Shown here piece by piece: positions 1-11,809 of a stretch of 11,809 nt of DNA (position 1 is the first letter of the stretch; every line of letters begins with the position of its first letter). The stretch spans positions 1-11,809 of the forward strand of contig CATPAM010000102.1 of NCBI GenBank assembly GCA_955651735.1, read 5' to 3'. This DNA is from Candidatus Acidiferrales bacterium. GTDB lineage: Bacteria > Acidobacteriota > Terriglobia > Acidiferrales > UBA7541. A program made the translations under genes and the position numbers. The notes below the pieces were generated by a model. The model did no database searches. It worked only from the letters and a program-made list of their open reading frames with translations, and was not told the DNA's origin.

Positions 1-129
1 ACGCGAGAGGCCATTGCGGGTGGTGCAACGATCCCGCCTAAAACCTTTGTGAAACATGCTCTACGAAATCCGGCCTACATCTTCAACGAAATGCCACCCT
101 GTGTGCGTTTCGCTGTTTACGCGCACTGA
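1..129 (+). CDS. possible C-terminal end of a gene entering from the left (unrecognised)
   Basis: The first reading frame is open from base 1 to a TGA at 127-129 and gives 42 residues. They look protein-like: a Gly/Pro-rich start (AGGATIPPKTF) followed by ARG/ASN/PRO/TYR-containing text and ending in VRFAVYAH. No start codon is needed because the gene would begin outside the window. I do not recognise the family. An open stretch this short can arise by chance at this GC content, so it is offered only as a candidate. The sequence to the left of the window would settle it. Confidence 0.3.
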   Translation, partial: TREAIAGGATIPPKTFVKHALRNPAYIFNEMPPCVRFAVYAH

Positions 130-918
130 CAAAGCGCCATGGGGCAAGACATACGCACGGTCAGTGAAAGCCAGCGGCCTAACCGGCGCACAGCGATGGC
201 TAAAGTGCATTCTTGAAATATTCGGGAATAGTCGCAGCTACATCGAATTGATCAGGTTAACGAATAACGCGCTGTCCGTGGATTGACCGCATTCGACTCG
301 AGCCACCTAGCGAAATTCGACCATCTAATGTTTCTTGCTTTACCTACTGAATAAGCCAATGCTACCGTGTCTCATGCACTCCGCTCCCACCCTCGTCTGC
401 CCCGCAGCAAGCGCCGCTGGCTCCCCCATGCCGTCTTGCGAACCTTCGCATTCCTGCGGAGCCGGTCGGAATAGATATATCGCCTCCAGTCCTGCGTATT
501 CTCAGCGTAGGGTCAATGTCACGAGGGACCACGCAATCGCAACTCCTTTGTTTCCTGTCATAGCCCTGCAACCCTTGTGTTTTCATGCGATTGCGCACTC
601 TTTTCCGCAACGGCGCTCCGCTATCCGCCGGGCATTCGATAACTTGCGCACTCTTTCGATCGTCCCTAGGGGCTGGTACCCCTCTCTCTTGCAGGGACCG
701 GGACCACTCGTTTTTGCAGCGCCTTTGTTTTCATACTCTTACGAATTGCTCTTCCCGCAACTCCCTCGCTTTCACAACCATCCTCATTGCCCGGGGGGGG
801 GACCCAACTCTAGGCGCTCGGACCCCCACGGCTTCCAACGTCCAATTCGTCCGATCCGCAACGTGGACGCGGCGCGCACATCCAACTATCATTGCTGCAA
901 GGTCAAGGTTCCAGGTCC
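130..918. other. gene-free stretch upstream of the phosphatase gene
   Basis: No reading frame here has convincing protein character. The longer ones on both strands are rich in Cys, Pro, Ser and Arg and match no family I know. The segment from about 540 to 800 is pyrimidine-rich on the + strand. It contains a 13-base direct repeat (TTGCGCACTCTTT at 591-603 and 644-656), a short inverted repeat (AGGGG/CCCCT, 668-683) and a run of nine G at 791-799. It probably includes the promoter and leader of the phosphatase gene, but no clear -35/-10 pair could be picked. Confidence 0.5.
591..656. repeat. 13-base direct repeat, two copies
   Basis: TTGCGCACTCTTT occurs at 591-603 and again at 644-656, 53 bases apart start to start, in otherwise non-coding DNA upstream of the phosphatase gene. 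It could be a regulator binding site, a remnant of duplication, or chance in a pyrimidine-rich region. Confidence 0.4.
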
Positions 919-2292
919 ATGGATGAAGCCACAAAACTAGCGCCATTCCCGCTCGTGGGCGACGCCGACCCCGTTCCCGCCAGTCTGTTCGCTTCCTATC
1001 CCGAACAGGCCAATACACTTTCGCTCCTCTATGAAGTCAGCCGCGAAATCACTTCCATTCTCGACCGCGAAGAACTCCTGCGCCGCGTCGCGCAGCGCGT
1101 CAAGAAACTCGTCAACTATCACGTTTTCAGCGTCATGCTGTGGAATGAAAAGACGCAGCACCTCGAGAGCGCCTTCGTCATGCGCTATGGCGACGCCATT
1201 CCCGCGCGCATGCGCGTCCCTCTCCATCAAGGGCTTACCGGCGCCGCCGCCTCCGCACGCCGCTCCGTGCGCGTCACCGACACTCTCGCGGATCCTCGCT
1301 TCCTCGGCTGTGAAGTCGAAATCGGAGTCGCCGTTCGTTCGGAACTCGTCGTTCCGCTTTTGATGCAGGATCGTCTGATCGGTGTCCTGGACTTGGAAAG
1401 CGCCGACACGCATGCGTTTACCGCCGAACACGAGCGCATGCTGGCCACGCTCGCTTCCTACATAGCGATTGCACTCGAAAACGCCCGCCTCTATGAAGAG
1501 GCCCGCCAAACCGAGCGCCGCCTCCACGAGGATCTTTCCACCGCGCGCGAAATTCAGCGCCAGCTCCTTCCCAGCGGAGCTCGCGAAGTTCCCGGCCTCG
1601 ATCTAGCCGCCGGGTACTGTTCGGCGCGCGAATTGGGTGGGGACTTCTACGATTTTCTTCCCTACGGCAAGGGCCGCCTCGCGGTCGCGCTCGGCGATGT
1701 CTCCGGCAAAGGCACCGCCGCCGCACTCTTTGGTTCGCTCGCCATCGGCACCATGCGTGAGCACATCGTCGAGCATCCCTGCCCGCCGCCGGAAATGCTC
1801 GCACTGCTAAATCGACGCCTGCATGGCGCACGGCTCGACGCGCGCTTCATCGCCATGGCATTCGCGGTGTACGACGCAGGCAAACGCCGCCTCACGCTTG
1901 CAAATGCCGGTGCCCCCTATCCGATATTGCTGCGCGGCGGAAAAGTGCAGCAAATTCGCGCTTCCGGCGTACCTCTCGGTCTGTTTTCGGACACCGAATA
2001 TGACGAAGTCACTGTCGACCTTCGCCCGGGCGATATCGTGCTGTTTGCATCGGATGGCATCCTCGAATCCGAAAACTCCGAGGAGCAGGAATTCGGCATC
2101 GCGCGGCTCAGCGCCCTTCTGGAGAGCGTCTCGCCGCAGCAGTCTGCCAGCGAAATCTGCGACCTCGTACTGAACGCCACAGACGCCTACGCCGGCGGCG
2201 GCTTCACTCCTTCGGACGACCGCACCCTGCTGGTGCTCCGCTTGACCGATCACTCTTCGACCGATTTCTCGAAGATGCCCATCATCTACTGA
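919..2292 (+). CDS. GAF domain-SpoIIE serine phosphatase (RsbU-type PPM phosphatase)
   Basis: This 457-residue cytosolic protein has a GAF sensor domain (about residues 50-195), a helical linker (195-220, EIQRQLLP) and a C-terminal SpoIIE/PP2C phosphatase domain (225-445). The metal-binding signatures are present: GGDFYD (240-245), GDVSGKG (259-265), ASDG (377-380) and SDD (432-434). In known relatives such as RsbU, these enzymes remove phosphate from STAS-type anti-anti-sigma proteins and so start a partner-switching cascade; the GAF domain would bind a small ligand or a partner. No STAS, anti-sigma kinase or sigma gene is present here, so the target is unknown. I chose ATG 919 over the in-frame TTG at 892, which only adds nine residues without family character. 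An AAGG at 905-908 is a weak, rather distant ribosome site. The gene is convergent with the M23 gene, only 22 bases away. Confidence 0.93.
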   Translation: MDEATKLAPFPLVGDADPVPASLFASYPEQANTLSLLYEVSREITSILDREELLRRVAQRVKKLVNYHVFSVMLWNEKTQHLESAFVMRYGDAIPARMRVPLHQGLTGAAASARRSVRVTDTLADPRFLGCEVEIGVAVRSELVVPLLMQDRLIGVLDLESADTHAFTAEHERMLATLASYIAIALENARLYEEARQTERRLHEDLSTAREIQRQLLPSGAREVPGLDLAAGYCSARELGGDFYDFLPYGKGRLAVALGDVSGKGTAAALFGSLAIGTMREHIVEHPCPPPEMLALLNRRLHGARLDARFIAMAFAVYDAGKRRLTLANAGAPYPILLRGGKVQQIRASGVPLGLFSDTEYDEVTVDLRPGDIVLFASDGILESENSEEQEFGIARLSALLESVSPQQSASEICDLVLNATDAYAGGGFTPSDDRTLLVLRLTDHSSTDFSKMPIIY

Positions 2293-2314
2293 CGTGAGAA
2301 ACGTTTTTGCGGAA

Positions 2315-3583
2315 TTATTGTGCGGGCGAGGAGCTGATGCTGACTTGCAGGAGCGCAGGATTTTTCAGCAGCGCCAGCCATTTTTCGCGCACCGCGGCGA
2401 ATTCAGGAAGGTTTTTCTTGCCGACCGGATCCGAAGGCGGCAGTCCCAGCTTCTCGAAATTTTTGTATTGCCCGCGCTGCAAAATGCGGAAATCCAGATG
2501 CGGCCCGGTGGAAAGTCCCGTGCTGCCCACCAGACCGATGGTCTTGCCGATTTCTACGCGCTCCCCGTTGCGCACGTACATGCGCGACAAATGCAGGTAC
2601 ATCGTTTCGTATCCGTTGGGATGCGCGATCTGCACCATGTTTCCCTCCCCGCCTTTGCGCCCGGCAAAAACCACGTGGCCCGTGCCGATGCTTTGCACCG
2701 GAGTGCCTACCGGTGCGCCATAATCGGTGCCCAGGTGCGCGCGCACCGTTTTCAGGATCGGATGAAAACGCGCGCGGCTGAAATGCGAAGTCACTGGTGC
2801 GGAAAATTTTAGCGGGGAGCGCAAGAAAACTTTTTGCAGCGATTTGCCGTCCGCGTTGTAGTAAGCGGGCCGCCCCGTTTCATCGTGAAAGAGCAGTGCC
2901 TCGTATTTTTTGCCGCCGTTGTCGTATTCGGCCGCAAAGATTTTTCCGTACCCGGCAAACTGCCCCCTGGAATATTTCTTTTTTTCCAGCACCACGCGAA
3001 ACGTATCGCCCTTGCGCGGGTCGGTATAAAAATCCAGATCGTATCCAAAAATCTGCGCGAGGTGCATCGCGAGTTCGGCTGATTCTCCGGTTTGTTCCAC
3101 GGCGTTGAAAAGCGAATCGTCGATTTGTCCCGTCACCACCGTGACTTCCAGCCGCGACGGAATTTCCCGCACTTCCGCGCTGAATCCACTTTGCGCCGGA
3201 GTAATTTTAAGCATGCGATCGGCGTCAATTTTGTAATCGATTTCGCGCAACTCCCCATCCACGCTGCGGTTCACCGTAATGGTATTTCCCGCGCGCACCT
3301 GCCGCAAATTGAAGGCGCGCTGCGCGGCGTCAGAGGCGCTCGCGGCGTCTTCCGCGCTGAGGCCGAATTTTTGCAGCGCGGCTGCAAAATGCTGGCCTGC
3401 GGGAACCTGCTTTTCCGTGGGGAGTACGGTTTGCGCGCGAATGTGCGCGGCTTCTTCGCGGGCGAGCTGCGTTTGCCGCTGCATTTCCGTCACCGCGTCG
3501 AGGCGAAGGCGGAAAATATAGGCGAGCGTACCGCACGCGGCGGCGATCAGAATCAGAAATAAAGAGAGAGAGCGGCGCGTCAA
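2315..3583 (-). CDS. membrane-anchored M23 (LytM/MepM-like) peptidoglycan endopeptidase
   Basis: The protein has 422 residues. An N-terminal signal anchor (residues 5-24 after RR) leads to a short coiled region (30-50). A MepM-type N-terminal part follows (about 60-235), with the usual 'FGYDLDF...RKGDTFRV' segment at 179-197. The M23 domain covers about 265-375. It would cleave peptide cross-links of peptidoglycan in the periplasm. The zinc and catalytic positions seen are H283xxxD287 and H331. The usual HxH of 'GPHLHYE' reads GPHLDF here, H362-L-D364, so the third zinc ligand is Asp rather than His. The start is TTG 3583: an in-frame stop lies three codons upstream, AGGA sits just before it, and the anchor begins directly after. 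The gene follows the penicillin-binding gene on the same strand after 148 bases, which suggests a shared role in wall growth. Confidence 0.9.
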   Translation of the reverse strand: MTRRSLSLFLILIAAACGTLAYIFRLRLDAVTEMQRQTQLAREEAAHIRAQTVLPTEKQVPAGQHFAAALQKFGLSAEDAASASDAAQRAFNLRQVRAGNTITVNRSVDGELREIDYKIDADRMLKITPAQSGFSAEVREIPSRLEVTVVTGQIDDSLFNAVEQTGESAELAMHLAQIFGYDLDFYTDPRKGDTFRVVLEKKKYSRGQFAGYGKIFAAEYDNGGKKYEALLFHDETGRPAYYNADGKSLQKVFLRSPLKFSAPVTSHFSRARFHPILKTVRAHLGTDYGAPVGTPVQSIGTGHVVFAGRKGGEGNMVQIAHPNGYETMYLHLSRMYVRNGERVEIGKTIGLVGSTGLSTGPHLDFRILQRGQYKNFEKLGLPPSDPVGKKNLPEFAAVREKWLALLKNPALLQVSISSSPAQ

Positions 3584-3599
3584 ATATTCCTCACTGTCA

Positions 3600-3627
3600 G
3601 TTCGAATCCCCCCGGTTGGTTCGAATC
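3600..3627. repeat. two direct copies of GTTCGAATC upstream of the M23 gene
   Basis: GTTCGAATC occurs at 3600-3608 and 3619-3627, 19 bases apart start to start (about two helical turns), just upstream of the M23 start at 3583. The core TTCGAA is itself palindromic. The spacing and position would suit a regulator binding site. It also resembles the T-loop of tRNA genes, but no tRNA fold surrounds it. Confidence 0.35.
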
Positions 3628-3698
3628 AGCTTGGCAGCTTACCGCAGGAATGGCGCTCCTGTCCCACGCCGCGGCAAGAAAACAACGGATTTGAGGCT

Positions 3699-3720
3699 AG
3701 CACAGCCTAAAGGCCGTGCT
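3699..3720 (-). terminator. possible hairpin terminator after the penicillin-binding gene
   Basis: An inverted repeat with ten-base arms and one mismatch (AGCACAGCCT / AGGCCGTGCT on the + strand) lies 12 bases beyond the stop of the minus-strand transpeptidase gene. On the minus strand it is not followed directly by a T run; a looser T-rich stretch comes about 20 bases later. It may end or attenuate transcription between the transpeptidase and M23 genes, or only stabilise the 3' end. Confidence 0.4.
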
Positions 3721-3731
3721 GCTGAGCGGTA

Positions 3732-4826
3732 CTACTTGCCGGAGGTAAGCAGGTTGAGATCGGGTTGGCGGAGGCCAGTCTGGTCTCGGGTGGCGAAATA
3801 ATTTTGTTCGCGGAGGCGGCGATAAATGCGACCGGCGACGAGGGCAGCGGTGGGGCCGATGACTTGGCGGGAGCTGCCGCGGAGAAGAACAGCCAGCGCT
3901 ATTTTCGGATGCGCTTCGTCGGCGTAGGTGACGAACCAGCCCACGCGCGAAGTGGGATCGTTGCAGGTTCCGGTCTTGCCCAGGGGCATTTCGTCTCCGC
4001 CGCTATCGAAGCTGCGCTTGCCGGTGCCGTAGAGAACGGCGGCGAGCATGCCCTCGCGAATTTCCGGCAGGACCTCTGCGATATTCAAATCGCGCTTCAC
4101 ACGCGGCGCGAAATTCTGGATTTCGTCCGCGGTGCGCGGATATTGCAGATAGTAGAGTGTGCCGCCGTTGGCGAAAGCAGCGGCAAGCGAAACCAACTGC
4201 AGCGGCGTCATGTGGATGCCTTCTCCGAAGCTGGACATGCGCGCGATGCCGCCATGCGCGGGCGGCTGCATGGGGAAGGAACCCGGGTGCTCTTCGGGAA
4301 GATTGTAGCCGGCAAGCTCGCCGAGACCGAGAAGGCGCGCGTAACGGGAAATGGTGTCGAAGCCCATGCGGCGGCCGAGCTGCTCGAAAAAGACGTTGTT
4401 GGAGTGGGCCATGGCTTCGGTCAAATTCATGTACTTGCGGCGGCCGACTTTGAGCATGGTGTCGCGAGTGATGACATTTTCTTCCAGAGCGGCGAGCGCG
4501 ACAGTGGGCTTGATCGTGGAGCAGGGAATGTAGCCGTCACCGAAAGCGATTTTTTGATTGACGATGGTGAGGATGCGGCCGGTGTTGGGATCGACGGCGA
4601 CGACGGCGCCGTTGTAGCGGCCAAGGCCATCGACAGCAGCGGCGCGCACGACGGGATCATCAAAGGTGCCGATATCCGCGAGAGTGGAATCAGCGAACGT
4701 CGGGACGCCGCGAAAACGCGAGATGTGATGCAGCGAAGCCCTGCGCGCGGCGGGCGCGGCCGGCATCAGCACGGCCACCGTTACAGCGAGAAGTGCGGCT
4801 AGATATACACGTCCCAGGTGCTTCAC
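3732..4826 (-). CDS. secreted stand-alone penicillin-binding transpeptidase
   Basis: The protein has 364 residues with a signal peptide (charged MKHLGR, hydrophobic 8-21, then APAARRA). The rest is a single transpeptidase domain (PF00905 type) with all three active-site motifs: S103-TI-K106, S142-N-N144 and K284-T-G-T287. It should form D,D cross-links, or act on the stem peptide, in the periplasm. It lacks both the glycosyltransferase domain of class A proteins and the dimer domain of FtsI/PBP2, so it is much shorter than those. The SNN motif and GKTGT argue for a penicillin-binding protein rather than a class D beta-lactamase, though resistance-like hydrolysis cannot be excluded by eye. The start is GTG 4826: GGAG (4833-4836) lies six bases upstream, the signal peptide begins there, and the promoter lies inside the longer reading frame that would start at 4913. 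Confidence 0.9.
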   Translation of the reverse strand: MKHLGRVYLAALLAVTVAVLMPAAPAARRASLHHISRFRGVPTFADSTLADIGTFDDPVVRAAAVDGLGRYNGAVVAVDPNTGRILTIVNQKIAFGDGYIPCSTIKPTVALAALEENVITRDTMLKVGRRKYMNLTEAMAHSNNVFFEQLGRRMGFDTISRYARLLGLGELAGYNLPEEHPGSFPMQPPAHGGIARMSSFGEGIHMTPLQLVSLAAAFANGGTLYYLQYPRTADEIQNFAPRVKRDLNIAEVLPEIREGMLAAVLYGTGKRSFDSGGDEMPLGKTGTCNDPTSRVGWFVTYADEAHPKIALAVLLRGSSRQVIGPTAALVAGRIYRRLREQNYFATRDQTGLRQPDLNLLTSGK

Positions 4827-4832
4827 CGTTTG

Positions 4833-4836
4833 CTCC
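4833..4836 (-). promoter_or_regulatory. ribosome binding site that fixes the transpeptidase start
   Basis: On the minus strand GGAG sits six bases before GTG 4826. This decides for the GTG start, and so for a proper signal peptide, over the in-frame upstream start at 4913. Confidence 0.75.
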
Positions 4837-4877
4837 AAACTTTTTTGCTCGACTCGGATTCGTTTTGTGAAGGGCTG

Positions 4878-4906
4878 TTTGTATCCCAGGCGGCTCGCCC
4901 GGTCAA
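4878..4906 (-). promoter_or_regulatory. sigma-70-type promoter of the transpeptidase gene
   Basis: On the minus strand TTGACC (4906-4901, five of six to consensus) and TACAAA (4883-4878, four of six) are separated by exactly 17 bases. Transcription would begin near 4871, leaving a leader of about 45 bases before GTG 4826. It is the only clear promoter for this gene, and it may also serve the downstream M23 gene. Confidence 0.65.
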
Positions 4907-4913
4907 CCTTCAT

Positions 4914-5430
4914 TTCCGCGAATCGTTCCCGCTAGACAAACCGTGTCTGCGACAAGCGGTCGATTACTGCCCAGCTTTGCTGCACCCCATCGGCCAAAAG
5001 GGCGGATGCACATTTGACGCGACTTAGCTCCTAAAGGTTTTGCTGCACTGTGCCTGAGAGAAACACGTGCATCTCAGGATGAAACAGATTGTAGGGTTTT
5101 GGGGAGGGCCGAGCAATAGCCAAAGAGCTCCAGTACGAAGCTATGTGCTTTATTTTGAACGGCTGGCCGGGTGGACAGAGAAGGGACAGGCGCGGGGGCT
5201 GGGCCTGTCCGGGGGAACGGTTCGATGGGTGGACAAAGGGGGTGTCGCGAGATGAAAACAAGGGCTGTGCCAGATCACGGCGAGACTAGGAGCTAAACAC
5301 AGGGCCAATAGCACACAGTTTATTGAGACACAGCGAGTCGGGCGGCGATGACGGGCCGCGTATTTCGCGGCTCTGGCGCGGTTGCCGCAGAGCTCGTTTG
5401 GACCGCAATTCGGAAGATTGTGGTTGTGGT
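4914..5430. other. gene-free stretch between the transpeptidase gene and the DUF1569 remnant
   Basis: The open frames here on both strands are short and have no family character. The stretch holds a hairpin (5184-5210) and two copies of GGGTGGACA-A/G-AG (near 5169 and 5226). The left end provides the upstream region of the transpeptidase promoter. The frame of the DUF1569 remnant is open further upstream, to about 5323, but residues before ATG 5431 look unlike the family. I see nothing else in it. Confidence 0.5.
5184..5210. repeat. inverted repeat / hairpin, eight-base arms
   Basis: GGACAGGC (5184-5191) and GCCTGTCC (5203-5210) are perfect inverted repeats around an 11-base G-rich loop. No T run follows on either strand, so it is not a standard terminator. 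It stands alone in a gene-free stretch. Confidence 0.45.
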
Positions 5431-5844
5431 ATGGAATTTCTTTCCATCAAGAACCTGCGGAACGCGAAGGGCAAAGAGGAAATCGCACGTCGGCTGGAGA
5501 ACGTGGGGCCAGACAGCAAGCGCGTGTGGGGAAAAATGTCCGCCCCGGCCGGAGGGATGTATCCGAGCAAGGTGTTGAGGTGGATTGCCCTGTGGGCCCC
5601 GCTACAGTGGCCGCACGGATTCAAGACCATGCCGGAACTGGACCAGGAGGCGGGCGCGGGCACCTCGCCGCTGGAATTTGCGCGGGATCAGCGCGAGCTG
5701 CAGAACTTGCTGGAACGCTTCACCAGCACGCCGCGCGATTTTAGCTGGGGGCAGCATCCGCATTTTGGAGCGATGAGCGAGAGCGAGTGAATGCGGTTGG
5801 CGTACCATCATGCGCATCACCATTTGCGGAGGTTCGGGACCTGA
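5431..5844 (+). pseudogene. decayed DUF1569 (DinB-superfamily) gene
   Basis: Translation from ATG 5431 gives clear DUF1569/DinB text: EEIARRLENVGPDSKRVWGKMSAP, then RWIALWAPLQWPHGFKTMPELDQE, GTSPLEFARD, LLERF and HPHFGAMSESE. Two lesions are visible. First, after WGKMSAP the family normally continues for roughly 30 residues with a 'HL' metal-ligand region; here it jumps in frame to SKVLRW. Second, TGA at 5788-5790 stands exactly where the family has Trp in 'SEWLRWGYLHMDHHLRQFG'. The same frame then continues after the stop as MRLAYHHAHHHLRRFG to a second TGA at 5842-5844. Intact members are predicted DinB-fold metal proteins, some possibly thiol-linked transferases. It sits just upstream of the arsR cluster on the same strand. 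The family assignment is from memory of its consensus; the stop and continuation are directly visible. Confidence 0.8.
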
Positions 5845-5866
5845 AACTTTTCCTGCATTTTTTCTC

Positions 5867-5903
5867 TTGACACAATCCATCGGTAAGCGGTAGCTTACCG
5901 TTC
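5867..5903 (+). promoter_or_regulatory. arsR promoter
   Basis: A perfect -35 box, TTGACA, lies at 5867-5872. A poor -10 (TAGCTT, 5891-5896) lies 18 bases on. The predicted transcription start is then at about 5902-5904, on or next to the GTG start codon of arsR. This implies a leaderless or nearly leaderless message; there is no room for a ribosome binding site. A weak -10 is typical where a bound regulator overlaps the promoter. Confidence 0.65.
5881..5900. promoter_or_regulatory. palindromic operator of the arsR cluster
   Basis: CGGTAAGC (5881-5888) and GCTTACCG (5893-5900) are perfect inverted repeats around GGTA. The site lies between the -35 box and the GTG at 5904 and covers the -10 region. 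ArsR-family dimers bind 12-2-12-like or shorter palindromes in this position and block RNA polymerase, so autorepression by the adjacent gene product is the simple reading. Confidence 0.75.
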
Positions 5904-6299
5904 GTGCAGACTTACGTACAAGCGGGGCTGGAGGCGCTAGGGGATCCGACGCGCTTTGCCATTTTGCAAAGCCTGGCGCGGCGGCCGCTGGCGGTGAGCG
6001 AGCTGGCGGAGACGCTGCCGGTGAGCCGCCCGGCGGTTTCGCAACACCTGCGGGTGCTGAAGGATGCGCGGCTGGTGAGCGACCGCAAGGCCGGCACGAA
6101 AAGGATTTACGAAGTGAATCCCGAGGGGATCGCGCTGCTTCGCGAGCATTTCGACAAGTTGTGGGAGCAAGCTTTGGGCGCGTTCCAGATAGCCGCAGAA
6201 AAAAACAAGGAGAGACAACATGGCCGAATCCGTGGCAGCAAAAGCAGACATCGTCCGAAAAACGCTAAACACGAACGTGCCAATCGAGCGCGCGTTTGA
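5904..6299 (+). CDS. ArsR-family winged-helix transcriptional regulator
   Basis: This 131-residue protein has an ArsR winged helix at about 5-75: ALGDPTRFAIL (11-21), helix-turn-helix VSELAETLPVSRPAVSQHLRVLK (31-53) and wing VSDRKAGTKRIYEV (58-71). No CxC-type metal site is visible, so it is not the arsenic-sensing kind. It matches the subgroup that accompanies SRPBCC/AHSA1 genes. GTG 5904 is chosen because the conserved N-terminus (MQTYVQAGLEALGDPTR) starts there, directly behind the operator. The reading frame overlaps the next gene by 80 bases. The last 25-30 residues are a basic, low-complexity tail unlike the rest of the family, so the ancestral stop may have been lost. It probably represses its own cluster; the inducer is unknown. 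Confidence 0.92.
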   Translation: MQTYVQAGLEALGDPTRFAILQSLARRPLAVSELAETLPVSRPAVSQHLRVLKDARLVSDRKAGTKRIYEVNPEGIALLREHFDKLWEQALGAFQIAAEKNKERQHGRIRGSKSRHRPKNAKHERANRARV

Positions 6300-6714
6300 G
6301 GTGTTCACGGGGAAGATGGCGGCGTGGTGGCCGGCGACGCACCATATCGCCAAGCAGGCGTTCGCGGAGATCGTGGTGGAGCAACGCAGCGGCGGGCGAT
6401 GGTTCGAACGCGCCGCGGACGGAAGCGAGTGCGAGTGGGGGCGCGTGCTGGCTTGGGAGCCGCCGCACCGCGTGGTGTTTTCGTGGCATTTGCAAGCGGA
6501 CTGGAAGTATGACCCGAATCCGGAGAAGGCCAGCGAAGTGGAAATTCGATTTTTCGCGGAGGGCGCGGGGAAGACGCGCGTGGAGTTGCAGCATCGCGCT
6601 CTGGAGCGCCACGGCGCGGGTTGGGAGCAAATTCGCACCGGCGTGGATTCGCCTGGGGGGTGGAGCGCGATTCTGGAGCAGTTTGCGAAGGCGGTGGTTA
6701 CACAGCAAGGTTAG
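6220..6714 (+). CDS. SRPBCC / AHSA1-like domain protein
   Basis: A 164-residue single-domain protein of the START/SRPBCC fold, with the typical N-terminal strand and helix (NTNVPIERAFEVFTGKMAAWW), a central GGRWFER..., the EWGRVLAWEPPHRVVFSW segment and the C-terminal helix motif RHGAGWEQIRTGVDSPGGW. These proteins have a deep hydrophobic ligand pocket; the ligand here is not known. The start ATG 6220 has AAGGAG (6207-6212) seven bases upstream. The gene starts inside the arsR reading frame and is almost certainly co-transcribed with it, which is the usual ArsR-SRPBCC pairing. It is followed by the YCII gene after 43 bases. Confidence 0.92.
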   Translation: MAESVAAKADIVRKTLNTNVPIERAFEVFTGKMAAWWPATHHIAKQAFAEIVVEQRSGGRWFERAADGSECEWGRVLAWEPPHRVVFSWHLQADWKYDPNPEKASEVEIRFFAEGAGKTRVELQHRALERHGAGWEQIRTGVDSPGGWSAILEQFAKAVVTQQG

Positions 6715-6745
6715 TCGAGAATCGCGGGATATTATTTTACTCAAC

Positions 6746-6751
6746 GAGGAG
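6746..6751 (+). promoter_or_regulatory. ribosome binding site that fixes the YCII start
   Basis: GAGGAG lies six bases before ATG 6758 but directly abuts the other in-frame ATG at 6752. The spacing favours 6758 as the true start. Confidence 0.65.
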
Positions 6752-6757
6752 ATGCCT

Positions 6758-7201
6758 ATGTTGAAAAACGGAAAATCAATCAAGACGGTGCTATTTGCTT
6801 TCGTGTTGCTACTCGGGGGCGCGGCCATTGCGCAAACGCCGAGGGAGTTTCCGCAAGGCGTGAACATTCCGAAAAACATGAAGCCGTATTTCTTGTGCCT
6901 GTTGGAAACGGGGGAGAAGTGGACCCCCGTGCAGTTTGCGGACCCAGCGATGCAGGAGCATCTGGCGTACATTCGCGAGCAGGTGGAGGCGGGGAAGTAC
7001 GTGGTGGTAGGGCCAGCGCTCGATCAAGGACGAATTGGCGGGATGGCAATCATCAACGCTGCGTCGATGGAAGAGGCGCAGAAGATTGTGAACGCCGACA
7101 AGATGGTACAAAGCGGCCATCTAACGGCGGAGATTCATCCGGTGATGCTGGCGGACCTCTCGGCGCTGCACATTGAGTATCCGGCTAAGGCAGGGAAGTA
7201 A
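6758..7201 (+). CDS. exported YCII-domain protein
   Basis: The protein has 147 residues. An N-terminal signal peptide (MLKNGKSIK, hydrophobic stretch to about 23, then AIAQ as a likely cleavage site) is followed by a YCII-related domain at about 40-135, with MKPYFLCLLETGEKW, DPAMQEHLAYIREQVEAGKYVVVGPAL, GGMAIINAASMEEAQKIVNAD and AEIHPVML. YCII proteins adopt a ferredoxin-like fold and are usually cytosolic; their activity is mostly undefined. Here it would act in the periplasm or outside. It ends 25 bases before the convergent stop of the trehalose synthase gene. It is the third gene of the arsR-SRPBCC cluster on the same strand, and no separate promoter is visible in the 43-base gap, so it is probably under the same operator. 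Confidence 0.88.
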   Translation: MLKNGKSIKTVLFAFVLLLGGAAIAQTPREFPQGVNIPKNMKPYFLCLLETGEKWTPVQFADPAMQEHLAYIREQVEAGKYVVVGPALDQGRIGGMAIINAASMEEAQKIVNADKMVQSGHLTAEIHPVMLADLSALHIEYPAKAGK

Positions 7202-7226
7202 GAAACGGCACCGCCGCACTCCAAAA

Positions 7227-9506
7227 TCAGCGGGTTAGCGGTTCCGCGGATTCCGCGCGCTCCGGCGCGTCGATGCGAATCTCCGTAAGATCGGAGAGCA
7301 AGCTAGCCGCCCAGCGGTAGACATTGTGTTCCCGCACGGAATCTCGCATGCGCTGCATGCGGGCGGCTTGCTCTTCGACAGGCATGTTCAGCGCGCGATG
7401 GATGGCGCCGGCCAGTTGCTGGACGTCGTAAGGATTGACGAGCAGGGAGTCGGTAAGCTCCAGAGCCGCGCCCGCGAACGTGCTGAGGATCAGGACGCCG
7501 CGATTATCCCCGCGAGAAGCGACAAACTCCTTGGCGACGAGATTCATTCCGTCATGCAGCGAAGTGACCATGCACAACGAGGCGGCATGATAGAAGCGGG
7601 CGATTTCCTCGTGCGAATGGTGGCGCTTGAGGAAGACGATGGGCTTCCAGTGGCCGGCCTGAAAGCGCGCGTTGATGCGCTCGGTTTCGGAGGCGACCTG
7701 GTCTAGCAGGGTCTGATAGCGCTCGATTTTCGTCCGACTGGGGGCGCCGAGCTGAACGAAGGTGAAGCGGCGCTGGTAAGAAGGGTAAAGCTCAAAGAAG
7801 AGCTCGATGCCGCGGAAGCGCTCGAGAATGCCTTTGGTGTAGTCCACGCGATCGACGCCAACTCCCAGAACCGTGGCGCTAATACCGAGTTCATTGCACA
7901 GCGCCGCGCTTTCCTCGGCCATGGTGCGCGCGGGCTGACCGTTTTCCTGAAGTGCCACGCTGATGGGAAAAGGCCGCACGCGAGTAACGTGTCCCTGGCG
8001 ATTCACTGAAAAACGATCCCATTCGGTGAGCGCCTCCACCGCGCGGTCGACGGTGGAAAGAAAATTGTTGCAATGAGACTGGATGTGAAAGCCCACAAGG
8101 TCGGCGCCGAGCAGGCCGTCGATCAGTTCGCGCCCCCAGGGGCAGATGCCGAAGACCTCGGGATTGGGCCAGGGGGTGTGCCAGAAGATGGCGACGCGGG
8201 CGTCGGGCCTGGCTTCCTTGATCATGCGGGGAAGCAGAGCGAAATGATAATCCTGCACCAGGACAATAGGTGACTCGGTGGATTCCATCTCCTCGATGGC
8301 GGCGTCGGCGAAGCGGCGATTGACTTCCTGATAGGCGACCCAATCCTCAGGGCGAAAAATGGGACGAGTGTGCGCGATGTGGCAGAGCGGCCAGATGCCT
8401 TCATTGGCGAAGCCTTCGTAGTAGCCCTTCTCTTCTTCGGCGCTGAGCCAGACGCGGCGCAGCGTGTACTTGGGATGGTCGGGGGGCACACGAAGATGGT
8501 CTTTGGCGTCAACGGTTTCGCGGTCGGCGCTGCCCGCGCCGTGGGCGATCCAGGTGCCTTCGGTGGCGAGGAGCACGGGCTCGAGAGCGGTGACCAGGCC
8601 GCTGGCAGGAACAATCACCTGGACATTTCCATTGTTGCCGATGCCGCGGACGTGCATATACGGCTCGCGATTGGCGATGACGAAGAGCGGCTTGTTTTGC
8701 AATTTGCTGCTCAAGCTCACACGGAGGCGCTCGGCGGTCCATAAGGAATCGTTGGTGTCGCGAAGGCGCGCTTCTTCCTCGGCGGTGGCGCGCGCGGCGT
8801 TGAGGTCGCGTGCGAGATGCGTGACTTCGTGATGCAGTTGGTCGAAGACCTCGCCCTGCGGGAGGGAGGGAGGAGCGTGCGATTGGCCGGTGCGCAAGGT
8901 GCGGAGCCACTTGGCGGTGCGCGCGAGCGGGCCGGTGAGCGTCCAACGAACAAGAATTAGCGCGAGCAGGGTGACGAGCAGCGTTTGCACCAGAGCATTG
9001 ACCAGGGAATCGCGCAAGGTATGAGCAACCTGCTGGTCGATGTAGGTGGCGTCGTGAACCAGGGCGAGCGTGCCGACTACTTGGTCGTTGCTGTGAAGAG
9101 GCAAGGCGTAAACGTGGACAGGCGTGTTGTTCACGCTGAGGAACTCGCCGAAGCCGGTATCGCGTTCGGCGGCAAGCGCCGCGGCGGCGGGACGGATCTG
9201 GAACAGAGAAGCAAGGCCGGACGTTACGGCGAGGGCCACGCCATTGGCGTTGTAGACGGCGACGCATTTCAAATGCTCGCGCTGGCCGAAGCGATCCACG
9301 AGCCGTTGCAGGCTTTTGTCCGGCAAGGGCCTGTCAAATTGCGGCTCGACATTTTCCTGCAAGCTTTCCCCAAGGATTTCGTCGCGGCGGGAGAGATCAT
9401 TGCGAAGGACGCGGCGCTCGGTGCGAACCTGGTAGCCGGCGAAAAGCAGGGACACGACAACGACGCTGACAATAAGCGGCGAGATAAGTTTCAGGGTCGT
9501 GCGCAT
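7227..9506 (-). CDS. otsA: membrane sensor fused to trehalose-6-phosphate synthase (GT20, OtsA-type)
   Basis: At 759 residues it is about 280 longer than E. coli OtsA. Residues 9-24 and 168-187 are membrane segments; 25-167 would be a periplasmic sensor domain of unrecognised type; about 187-245 is HAMP-like, followed by a charged helix (235-262). The GT20 domain spans 272-742, transferring glucose from UDP-glucose (or another nucleotide sugar) to glucose-6-phosphate. Residues equivalent to known OtsA active-site positions are present: NREP (279-282, Arg280), W372, D419 in QDYH, H443 in HTPWP, R553 and K558 in VDRVDYTKG, and D652 and E660 in SLHDGMNLVAKE. So the enzyme should be active, with the catalytic part in the cytosol on the membrane inner face. 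No trehalose-6-phosphate phosphatase gene follows. Start ATG 9506 has a GGGGGAAG about five bases upstream. Input could be osmotic or wall stress, but that is inference. Confidence 0.92.
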   Translation of the reverse strand: MRTTLKLISPLIVSVVVVSLLFAGYQVRTERRVLRNDLSRRDEILGESLQENVEPQFDRPLPDKSLQRLVDRFGQREHLKCVAVYNANGVALAVTSGLASLFQIRPAAAALAAERDTGFGEFLSVNNTPVHVYALPLHSNDQVVGTLALVHDATYIDQQVAHTLRDSLVNALVQTLLVTLLALILVRWTLTGPLARTAKWLRTLRTGQSHAPPSLPQGEVFDQLHHEVTHLARDLNAARATAEEEARLRDTNDSLWTAERLRVSLSSKLQNKPLFVIANREPYMHVRGIGNNGNVQVIVPASGLVTALEPVLLATEGTWIAHGAGSADRETVDAKDHLRVPPDHPKYTLRRVWLSAEEEKGYYEGFANEGIWPLCHIAHTRPIFRPEDWVAYQEVNRRFADAAIEEMESTESPIVLVQDYHFALLPRMIKEARPDARVAIFWHTPWPNPEVFGICPWGRELIDGLLGADLVGFHIQSHCNNFLSTVDRAVEALTEWDRFSVNRQGHVTRVRPFPISVALQENGQPARTMAEESAALCNELGISATVLGVGVDRVDYTKGILERFRGIELFFELYPSYQRRFTFVQLGAPSRTKIERYQTLLDQVASETERINARFQAGHWKPIVFLKRHHSHEEIARFYHAASLCMVTSLHDGMNLVAKEFVASRGDNRGVLILSTFAGAALELTDSLLVNPYDVQQLAGAIHRALNMPVEEQAARMQRMRDSVREHNVYRWAASLLSDLTEIRIDAPERAESAEPLTR

Positions 9507-9595
9507 GAATACTTCCCCCTGGGCAAGAGCGAAGATTCCGTTTTTGGATTCACAAGGGCCACGCGAATCCGCAGGGCCAAAGAAAGCGCGTCCAT

Positions 9596-9952
9596 TTATT
9601 GCGACGAGTCCGACGGCTGCACGGCTACGTGAGTAGCAATGTTGGTTCCGTCGTTGGTTCGATAATCGACCGTGGCGTGCGCGCCAACTTTAAGTCTTCC
9701 CTCGACTGTGGTCATGTCGTCGATCAGGAACTGGAAGGTGACCAGGTCCTGGTTCTTCTTTACGTCAACCGAAAAGGAAGCGTCTCCGATGGCTGAAATT
9801 TTGCCGGAAACGGAGCCGCGCTCGGTGGCTTCTTTGAACAGGCGGCTATGCGGCTGGCTAGCGCGTCGGACGAAACCGCGACGCTTAAGCATGCCACAAA
9901 TAGGGTTCCAATGACCAGGGCAAGCTGTACTAGAACTATGAAAGATTTCCAC
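9596..9952 (-). pseudogene. DUF5666-like secreted protein gene, signal-peptide region out of frame
   Basis: The C-terminal two-thirds reads well as a DUF5666-like beta-barrel protein: VSGKISAIGDASFSVDV, FQFLIDDMTTVEG, LKVGAHATVDYR, NIATHVAVQP. Frame and stop (TAA, 9596-9598) are intact there. The first ~45 residues from GTG 9952 (MEIFHSSSTACPG...) look like nonsense. In the frame one base later the same DNA encodes a classic signal peptide: KSFIVLVQLALVIGTLFVAC... ending SDALAS. GTG followed by one extra G fits: removing a G at 9948-9949 puts GTG in frame with the signal peptide, and a second shift near 9840-9875 returns to the DUF5666 frame. So two offsetting indels probably scrambled the export signal. 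The intact part could still be made as a cytosolic protein from GTG 9952 or ATG 9892. It is listed as a pseudogene on balance. Confidence 0.6.
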
Positions 9953-9955
9953 TGG

Positions 9956-10554
9956 CTAACGCTGTGCGAGCAGAAAGCGGCGGAGGACGGGAAAAGCGTC
10001 TGGCCGTTAGGCTGAGGAGGGTAAGCGGCGACTATGCGCTTGGCGAATGCGTCGATAAATTTGGCGGATTCTTTTTCGGGAAGAGCAGAGAGAAAAGAAC
10101 GCCGCGCCGTGCCGGGCATGAAGTTAACGACGGGGTCTTTGCCGTCCAGTACCTGGAGGTAGACGGTTTCCCACCGATCGATATTGCTAGCGTGCCTTGA
10201 GAGCCAGCGCCAGTACGTTTCCGGAGGAGGAATGGGCGCAAGGAGGATAGGCTCCAACTTGACGCGCCACTGGCTTTGCATGACGAGCTCTTTCAGGCCG
10301 AGGTGCGAAGGCGACCACATGAGCGCGGGAAACTCGCAGCGAGCTTCCGCGAGCATTTCGGGAGAGGAATCGATGCCGGTGACTTCGGAATTGGAGAGAG
10401 TATCGGCTAGGATGCGGGTCAGGTGGCCGGTGCCGCAGCCGAGGTCATAGATTGAGGAGTATCCGGATTTCGGGCTGCGGGCCATGAGACCGAGGCCCGC
10501 ACGAAAGCGGATGTCAGGTTAGCGGAGCTAAGTTAGCGGCTCCCAGGTAGTCAC
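9956..10554 (-). pseudogene. tam: wrecked trans-aconitate 2-methyltransferase
   Basis: From GTG 10554 the frame gives TTWEPLT-stop-LR-stop-PDIRFRAGLGLMARSP, followed by the SAM motif DLGCGTGH. It aligns without a gap to the family start W-x-P-x-x-Y-L-x-F-x-x-x-R-x-R: TAG stands at the conserved Tyr and TAA at the conserved Phe. After the segment EARCEFPAL about 50 family residues (the middle of the Rossmann fold) are missing, and text resumes with PSHLGLKEL. The C-terminal part is well kept: RWETVYLQVLDGKDPV, NFMPGTARRSFLSALPE, AAYPPQPNGQTLFP. A frameshift follows: the expected RRFLLAQR and stop TAG (9956-9958) lie in another frame. The span of 599 bases is not a multiple of three. Tam normally methylates trans-aconitate with S-adenosylmethionine. 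No active enzyme can result. It lies 54 bases downstream of the LuxR-type gene. Confidence 0.85.
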
Positions 10555-10608
10555 CGCGGTAAGAAGAAATCATACCACCGCAACTCGGGAAGCCGCGGAT
10601 GGACAAGA

Positions 10609-11370
10609 TTAAGCCAGGAAGCCCTGGGTGCGATAGAGCTGCACCATATCGAGGCGGTCTTCGGCGCCGATTTTGTGCTTCATGCGATACAAGTGATTCT
10701 TGATGGTCTGCTCGGACAGGGAGAAGTGATTGGCGATTTCCTTATTGCTCAGTCCCTGTGCAATCAAAGGAATAAGCTGGAGTTCGCGGCGGCTGAGACC
10801 TAAACGGCGGCGGCCGCTGGCGCACGGAAGGCTCGCGGTATCGGATTCGAAATAACGGAACAGTGCGGCGCAAAGCGCGCCGGGACAAACCGCTTCCCCA
10901 GCGTGTACGGCCTGCACACCTTGCAGAACCTCTCCGGCGGAAGCATCACGCAGCAAGTAACCGCTGATGCCTGCGTGCACACATTGCAGGAATTCGCGCT
11001 CGTCCTTGGCCATGCCAATCAGCAGGATGCGGACGCCAGGTGCCGCAGTGCGGACCTGTTGAATGGCCGACAAGTCTTCCTGAAGGCTTCCCCGGGAGGT
11101 GAGGAGAAGGAGGTCCGGGCGTGCGTCCAGGAGCGCGTCCGTGTGGAATGGCGCGGCGGAGTCGGTGGCAATCACTTCAACGCAACCGCCCTTGATTAGA
11201 ACGCGGGCCAAAGCTTCACGCAGCAAGCGGTTGTCCGCAGCCACAAAGACACGGATATTCTCGGCTGGAGTCTTGCGAGCGTCGGCACGCGCGGGTTTTG
11301 AGGCACGCCGACGGGTATCTGGCGCAGAGTCGTTCGAACGGGCGGTTTCCTTGACCATGGTGTCCGTCAT
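10609..11370 (-). CDS. LuxR/NarL-type regulator with degenerate receiver domain
   Basis: The 253 residues comprise a basic, probably disordered N-terminal tail (1-37), a receiver-like domain (38-155) and a LuxR-type helix-turn-helix (about 190-250: LSRRELQLIPLIAQGLSNKEIANHFSLSEQTIKNHLYRMKHKIGAE in outline). The receiver has lost its chemistry. At the phospho-acceptor position, where RPDVVLLD is usual, it reads RPDLLLLT (Thr91). The acidic pair is reduced to Ala45-Asp46. The conserved Lys of GYLLKD is Arg141, and the switch Thr position is Gly119. Phosphorylation is therefore unlikely; activity would depend on ligand, partner or abundance. The ATG at 11370 overlaps the stop of the upstream hydroxylase gene (ATGA), suggesting translational coupling. 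AAGGAG lies about 13 bases upstream; a second Met (11358) is possible. It has no neighbouring histidine kinase. Confidence 0.9.
   Translation of the reverse strand: MTDTMVKETARSNDSAPDTRRRASKPARADARKTPAENIRVFVAADNRLLREALARVLIKGGCVEVIATDSAAPFHTDALLDARPDLLLLTSRGSLQEDLSAIQQVRTAAPGVRILLIGMAKDEREFLQCVHAGISGYLLRDASAGEVLQGVQAVHAGEAVCPGALCAALFRYFESDTASLPCASGRRRLGLSRRELQLIPLIAQGLSNKEIANHFSLSEQTIKNHLYRMKHKIGAEDRLDMVQLYRTQGFLA
11367..11370 (-). promoter_or_regulatory. ATGA stop/start overlap
   Basis: On the minus strand the four bases ATGA hold the start codon of the LuxR-type regulator and the TGA of the upstream hydroxylase gene. Such overlaps couple translation of the second gene to the first, so the regulator would be made in step with the membrane enzyme. 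Confidence 0.85.
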
Positions 11371-11809
11371 TGAAGCGCCGCCTCTCCTTCTGCTGTGCTT
11401 TCGCCCCGCAGGGAACCTAAAGACATTGTCAATTTATAACGTTGCAAGGCAATTGCCAAGCCCTTGCGGTTAAGAGGGCGATGGCGGGTGGACAGGGTGC
11501 GGAAGATCCGGTCGAAAAGGAAAAAGCCGATGCCAAAAATGGTATCCATGTGTCCCGTGCCGTCAACGCTGTGATGATGAATATCGTGAAGGCGCCTGGC
11601 ACGCCGGAACCAGTGATTGATCAGCGGCATACGAGCCATCCAGAAATCGCGGAGGTGCATGGCATCGTGGAGAAAGCTGAAGGTGAAGAACGGCCAGACA
11701 ACGAGGTTGCCTAGCACAATCACCTGATATTGGGGCCGTACGTGAAACAGGAACATAATGCCCCAACAGAAAGCCAGAACGACAGCCGACGGAACGAGCC
11801 ATTCAAGAC
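11367..11809 (-). CDS. fatty-acid hydroxylase / sterol-desaturase-superfamily membrane protein, 5' end outside the window
   Basis: The last 146 residues of a membrane protein are seen; the frame is open to the window edge. Hydrophobic segments occur at the start (WLVPSAVVLAFCWGIMFLF) and at YQVIVLGNLVVWPFFTF. Two histidine clusters typical of the non-haem di-iron fatty acid hydroxylase superfamily follow: HDAMH and, in RRLHDIHHH, HxxHH. Then DTIFGIGFFLFDRIF, the usual tail of this family. Enzymes of this group hydroxylate or desaturate lipids, sterols or carotenoids; the substrate cannot be told. The usual Asn in 'DTNFG' is Ile here. The gene continues past the right edge, where a third histidine cluster would be expected. 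It is the first visible gene of an operon with the LuxR-type regulator. Confidence 0.82.
   Translation of the reverse strand, partial: LEWLVPSAVVLAFCWGIMFLFHVRPQYQVIVLGNLVVWPFFTFSFLHDAMHLRDFWMARMPLINHWFRRARRLHDIHHHSVDGTGHMDTIFGIGFFLFDRIFRTLSTRHRPLNRKGLAIALQRYKLTMSLGSLRGESTAEGEAALQ

Follow-up and report, generated by a model that had tools for sequence, protein, structure and literature searches.

Can a bacterial enzyme that makes a sugar phosphate be switched directly by a signal from outside the cell? The question is raised by an 11,809-nucleotide stretch of DNA from a soil bacterium, Candidatus Acidiferrales bacterium (assembly GCA_955651735.1, contig CATPAM010000102.1, positions 1 to 11,809; hereafter the window), in which a single open reading frame (ORF) joins a trehalose-6-phosphate (T6P) synthase of family GT20 to a front end resembling that of a sensor kinase. 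Bacterial compatible-solute control is usually ascribed to gene induction or to cytoplasmic ions acting on the enzyme. Since the kinase-type front end is kept in relatives and in another phylum, the fused enzyme may be switched directly and not via gene expression. From sequence comparisons and structural models, the protein is probably a receptor-type T6P synthase that is gated by an outside signal acting via a HAMP-like relay, a reading to which we assign a probability of about two in three.

A kinase-type front end

A first-pass annotation of the sequence had placed two membrane segments ahead of the synthase and likened the front end to that of a histidine kinase. Both claims hold. Hydropathy is maximal at residues 5–23 (2.41) and 168–186 (2.47), the next-ranked stretch (1.72) falling within the GT20 domain. 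Both maxima lie within helices of an AlphaFold2 model of residues 1–266 (pLDDT = 81), which consists of helices at 2–57, 154–205 and 219–250 and an α/β domain at 64–152. Chance hydropathy as the source of these segments is ruled out by the model and by homology. A profile comparison with hhalign demonstrated that the front end is homologous to the front ends of acidobacterial histidine kinases (E = 1.9e-24 over 249 columns), and the model matched the folds of the WalK and CitA outside domains. NCBIfam returned WalK (residues 11–247, E = 3.5e-5) and CreC (residues 131–236, E = 1.1e-4), both weak and far under their cut-offs. Pfam matched nothing in residues 1–270 of the window protein, and neither HisKA nor HATPase_c was matched in the protein as a whole.

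By comparison with the kinase homologues, the Cache domain is predicted to lie outside the membrane. The domain search proposed by the first-pass annotation succeeded for GT20 (PF00982) and failed for HAMP (PF00672) and the Cache families, none of which was matched by Pfam in the window protein. Among 42 fused relatives, Cache families were matched at E 0.01 (sCache_3_2 in 12, dCache_1 in nine and Cache_WalK in six), and 20 of the 132 columns of the domain are at least 90% conserved across the 42 sequences. Despite lacking a Pfam HAMP match, the proposed HAMP-like linker, which follows the second transmembrane helix (TM2), is collinear with the HAMP of the homologous kinases by hhalign. It is modeled as the last two helices given above with a connector between them that, by reading, appears longer than usual. 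P193 and E227, which we take to be the AS1 proline and AS2 glutamate hallmarks of HAMP, are invariant across the 42 fused sequences.

Conservation along the protein was compared between 17 acidobacterial-group sequences and 25 sequences of the group found with the protein of locus L004 as query, which are mostly Patescibacteria by name. Identity between the groups was 19% for the first transmembrane helix, 30% for the Cache domain, 24% for TM2, 25–27% for HAMP and 11% for the HAMP connector. The linker helix (residues 237–252) is the best-conserved part of the front end at 52%, all of its other segments falling at 11–30%, and is followed by residues 253–268 at 40% and GT20 at 51–58%. The stretch from HAMP to the enzyme is thus conserved nearly to the same degree as the enzyme itself, which fits the need of a mechanical relay; this conservation suggests a relay role for the linker. 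Residues 253–268 belong to the enzyme group, as a W-T or W-N helix much like this one opens several stand-alone relatives.

An intact GT20 catalytic domain

The enzyme end looks active by sequence and model. Pfam matched PF00982 over residues 275–741 with E = 1.6e-114 and 383.7 bits (gathering score 32.5). In an alignment with E. coli OtsA (L153), R280, Y363, W372, D419, H443, R553, K558, R591, D652 and E660 correspond to R9, Y76, W85, D130, H154, R262, K267, R300, D361 and E369, respectively, residues of catalysis and glucose-6-phosphate (G6P) binding whose OtsA numbering follows the literature (offset by the initial methionine). All ten match OtsA, and the eight that the first-pass annotation had named as a complete active site were correctly chosen. 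R280, Y363 and R591 are presumably the residues for the G6P phosphate. A model of the full-length protein (pLDDT = 82.8) superposes on ternary complexes of T6P synthases (5jio, TMt = 0.90). The ten residues are kept, with no internal stop, in 28 of 28 full-length copies read from the genus. An inactive GT20 domain is unsupported, as the catalytic residues are kept.

Sequence and model establish the domain order, the membrane segments, the kinase-type homology of the front end, the intact catalytic residues, conservation in an acidobacterial and a mostly Patescibacteria sequence group, and the neighbouring trehalose genes. The layout is given in Table 1. The same MRTTL start is present in 21 of 24 rows of an alignment of relatives (A1), and the nearest named relative found, Candidatus Acidiferrum typicum (L003), is 87% identical across residues 1–759.

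Table 1. Layout of the fused gene and its product in the window.
Feature	Position	Strand	Basis
Sensor-fused trehalose-6-phosphate synthase, 759 aa	7227..9506	−	ORF, ATG at 9506
Shine-Dalgarno-like AGGGGGAAG, ATG 5 bases further on	9512..9520	−	Read from sequence
Transmembrane helix 1, about residues 5–25	9432..9494	−	Hydropathy; model helix 2–57
Predicted extracytoplasmic Cache/PAS-like sensor domain, about residues 29–160	9027..9422	−	Model; WalK and CitA outside-domain matches
Transmembrane helix 2, about residues 166–190	8937..9011	−	Hydropathy; model helix 154–205
HAMP-like relay, residues 191–236, P193/E227 invariant	8799..8936	−	Collinear with kinase HAMP; conservation
Linker helix, residues 237–252	8751..8798	−	52% identity between two sequence groups
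W-T helix capping GT20, residues 253–268	8703..8750	−	Several stand-alone relatives start near here
GT20 catalytic domain, residues 275–741	7284..8684	−	Pfam, residue alignment, structure superposition

Proposed mechanism

The fusion would be an inner-membrane T6P synthase whose outer WalK/CitA-like Cache (PAS) domain senses a cue. The resulting change would travel from TM2 through the HAMP-like relay and the conserved helix to the cytoplasmic GT20 domain, which would raise or lower glucose transfer from a nucleotide sugar to G6P. The T6P level would then be set post-translationally, with neither a phosphorelay nor transcription between. Catalytic activity, the donor and acceptor, dimerisation, gating by a signal, the direction of the switch and the product are predicted elements of this mechanism.

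Distribution of the fusion and the GT20 tree

The first-pass annotation had expected similar fusions in other genomes, and they were identified across Acidobacteriota, within the genus and in a Patescibacteria group. Some match is present in 120 of 297 Acidobacteriota genomes, with at least 31 full-length places in 29 genomes, where full length denotes a match that starts at query residue 1–29 and reaches 719 or beyond. The family has some match in 64 of 89 genomes. The genus has the fusion in 35 of 36, as 32 full-length copies and three fragments; two of the 32 (G325 and G326) have only a divergent copy that is 44% identical. Misassembly of the front end is ruled out, because many independent genomes carry the fusion. 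A search with the L004 protein scored 8000 proteins, and the 120 listed were all 739–779 aa long and 96–100% covered; the 21 named rows among them comprise 19 of Patescibacteria type (in which we place Daviesbacteria, Gottesmanbacteria, Levybacteria and others), one Bacteroidales and one "bacterium". Among plasmid records, 359 had matches, none of them spanning 80% of the query, and hence none contains a complete fusion.

A tree of 70 GT20 domains (L019 and L028 dropped as incomplete, L136 left out as it gave no GT20 ORF) places seven classical rows apart from 63 non-classical rows, the latter being 43 sensor-fused, 14 stand-alone and six antiporter-fused. The clade of the window comprises 28 sensor-fused rows, of which the L004 group supplies seven (support 94/96). 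Placing the sensor label on the tree takes four changes, or at least three by starred branches, and the history of the fusion thus includes several gains or losses.

The antiporter-fused proteins carry a Na/H-exchanger-like domain (PF00999, E = 1e-19 to 5e-23) ahead of a non-classical GT20 domain (L142:2086–4842, L151:1856–4585 and L152:2644–5376, the three scanned; L139–L141 are likewise exchanger-GT20 fusions by reading). This arrangement suggests that ion flux and T6P synthesis are directly coupled. On an Aminobacter plasmid, a 605-aa relative (L154:3782–5599) matched only from query residue 256 adjoins an amylo-alpha-1,6-glucosidase gene, with a GT4 gene close by.

Trehalose genes around the fusion

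The T6P phosphatase OtsB was searched for as PF02358 in 30 fusion-bearing genomes, namely the 29 with full-length copies and G169, whose match begins at residue 83. It was matched in 25 of the 30 and lies directly downstream of the fusion on the same strand in 18, at 19 places as one genome has two, 59–153 bases from the synthase match. Other genomes have it some 2 kb upstream (G018, G109 and G127), in convergent orientation (G230) or at other sites. In L004, from the small-genome Patescibacteria, an OtsB-like ORF, identified by reading, overlaps the end of the sensor-synthase gene, the pair lying at L004:1742–4839.

Within the genus, the same search found OtsB in only four of 36 genomes. It was not found in 31 of the 35 fusion-bearing members, the window's genome included, nor in 20 of the 23 that are at least 90% complete, although absence from a draft genome may be an assembly gap. 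A hidden OtsB was sought with a profile (A2) built from 12 OtsB sequences of the same phylum and was rejected, as only the same four genomes were strongly matched. The remaining 22 matches listed were weak (E = 3.7e-6 or worse) and covered fewer than 100 of 268 positions. Three of these loci were read (L145–L147); each contains an HAD ORF of about 180–190 aa that we take to resemble KdsC, and the one scanned matched generic HAD families only. In the window's genome the profile gave one weak match, to a generic HAD hydrolase of 186 aa that reads as KdsC.

All 31 fusion-bearing genus members in which OtsB was not detected have TreT, TreY or TreS. TreT, identified by its solved relatives (6zj4 and 2x6q) and PF21269, lies downstream on the contig and strand of the fusion in all 27 of the 36 genus genomes that have it. 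A DUF5752-like ORF stands between the fusion and TreT in 12 of 13 loci read, two of which were scanned with Pfam; the exception, L114, has OtsB in its place. DUF5752 (PF19027) was observed between the sensor-synthase, or OtsB, and TreT at L101:4360–6242 and L109:8860–11578. G324 and G312 retain OtsB between the synthase and TreT.

Nine genus genomes are without TreT (G000, which is the window's genome, and G300, G301, G310, G321, G325, G326, G328 and G331). Six of these have TreY or TreS, G325 and G326 have OtsB, and G300 is without the fusion too. TreY and TreS were counted above their curated cut-offs only, because E 0.001 gives matches in 36 of 36 genomes and 13 of 14 controls. The TreY match of G328 begins at position 189, and TreS of G310 is in two pieces. 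The relation of TreT to TreY or TreS within the genus has a Fisher p of 2.8e-4, a statistic that ignores kinship. The window's genome has TreS; its fusion has no OtsB, TreT or DUF5752 neighbour and is followed on the 3' side by a YCII-domain gene in convergent orientation.

The neighbouring trehalose genes tie the fusion to trehalose metabolism. As PF02358 was found neither in the window's genome nor in 30 other fusion-bearing genus genomes, the claim that a signal gates trehalose synthesis is not straightforward for this organism. Gating itself is consistent with the conserved linker; "trehalose" needs amending to T6P. The direct output would be T6P, whereas TreT, TreY or TreS may supply the trehalose.

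Weighing the explanations

Several points weigh against a signal-gated T6P synthase. PF00672 was unmatched in the window protein even with E allowed up to 1, and is absent from the 10 families listed for the 42 fused relatives at E 0.01. The fusion is patchy, with no match in 177 of 297 Acidobacteriota genomes and 25 of 89 family genomes. The 14 stand-alone relatives in the same GT20 group show that the front end is dispensable for catalysis. The NCBIfam OtsA cut-off (TIGR02400) was missed (423.3 against 564.85 bits), the window's genome, which is an estimated 73% complete, yielded no T6P phosphatase (PF02358), and the cue is unpredictable because relatives of the Cache domain bind many ligands. 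WalK-like domains sense wall fragments and CitA-like domains carboxylates, neither of which can be assumed for the Cache domain of the fusion.

The front end could instead serve to dimerise the synthase and to anchor it in the membrane, close to the envelope or to partner enzymes, and take no part in signalling. The stand-alone members and the antiporter-fused branch suggest that selection may act on membrane attachment as such, and the HAMP region is too degenerate for Pfam. However, the conserved Cache domain, the HAMP proline and glutamate and the linker helix exceed the needs of an anchor, and the homologous front ends are those of sensor kinases; we regard an anchor as possible, though unlikely. 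Were the GT20 domain to make another glucoside phosphate, such as glucosylglycerol phosphate, the missed OtsA cut-off, the branching of the group away from the seven classical rows and the many genus members without a detected T6P phosphatase would be accommodated. The glucosylglycerol-phosphate synthase model (GgpS, TIGR02398) missed its cut-off too (316.9 against 569 bits) and scored below OtsA; moreover, R280, Y363 and R591 are kept, and OtsB or TreT so often lies downstream (18 of 30 fusion genomes and 27 of 36 genus members, respectively), which makes a different product very unlikely.

The enzyme of the genus might also be a leftover of OtsB loss, trehalose now being made via TreT, TreY or TreS. 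That 31 of 35 fusion-bearing members have no detected OtsB, each having another trehalose maker, is in keeping with this. A leftover should decay, yet 32 of the 36 genomes carry a full-length fusion and the 28 copies read are intact in their ten residues and free of stops, so that this explanation is most improbable. A receptor-type T6P synthase accounts best for the evidence.

Other features of the window

A small ORF (9596–9952, minus strand) lies upstream on the same strand as the fusion, with a DUF5666 match just under the cut-off; of 23 loci compared, 15 contain members of the ORF cluster at this position. A methyltransferase-like ORF (9760–10485, minus strand) is apparently short of a stretch seen in L003:4599–5381, which could be due to deletion or assembly. 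A GAF-SpoIIE phosphatase, a stress-type regulator, is encoded at 892–2292 on the plus strand.

Comparison with known systems

OtsA-type synthases (GT20, PF00982) are soluble and regulated mainly by transcription. The fold and ten catalytic residues are common to OtsA and the fusion, but OtsA has no membrane front end and stands apart in the tree. WalK/CitA-type sensor kinases share the TM-Cache-TM-HAMP front end, whereas the fusion lacks HisKA and HATPase_c and has a glycosyltransferase as its output. HAMP-linked adenylate and diguanylate cyclases are membrane-gated enzymes in which a two-TM sensor and HAMP likewise drive small-molecule synthesis by a cytoplasmic enzyme; the predicted product of the fusion is instead a sugar phosphate, both a metabolic intermediate and an osmolyte precursor. 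The exchanger-GT20 fusions of Acidobacteriota share the non-classical GT20 group and a membrane module, but have an antiporter-like domain in place of Cache-HAMP and form a separate clade. In the trehalose pathway, T6P synthase (TPS) domains are also joined to the next enzyme as TPS-TPP fusions (Avonce et al. 2006, PMC1769515); the available part of that text contains no occurrence of "transmembrane", "HAMP" or "sensor". No description of a sensor- or HAMP-fused T6P synthase was found in the titles and abstract openings listed by searches of open-access literature, a restriction that makes this weak evidence of absence.

Implications

T6P has a regulatory role in plants. A regulatory role in yeast is also described in the available part of PMC1769515. 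In Candidatus Acidoferrum-like bacteria, a synthase uncoupled from T6P phosphatase might produce T6P as a messenger that carries an envelope or osmotic cue within the cell, with trehalose supplied by the exchangeable, T6P-independent TreT, TreY or TreS routes. There is room for T6P as a signal because the fusion is retained while OtsB is usually missing and the other trehalose routes vary. A generic phosphatase would account for the same facts, and we consider the messenger role quite unlikely. With the fusion and OtsB dissociated in one genus, T6P signalling in bacteria becomes a possibility; if it is true, the fusion would be a one-protein receptor for it. As a two-domain protein it may be assayed in one tube, and the question of gating is hence directly testable. 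A kinase-type receptor with a synthase as its effector, in Acidobacteriota and in the small-genome Patescibacteria, would provide a direct route from an outside signal to a metabolite.
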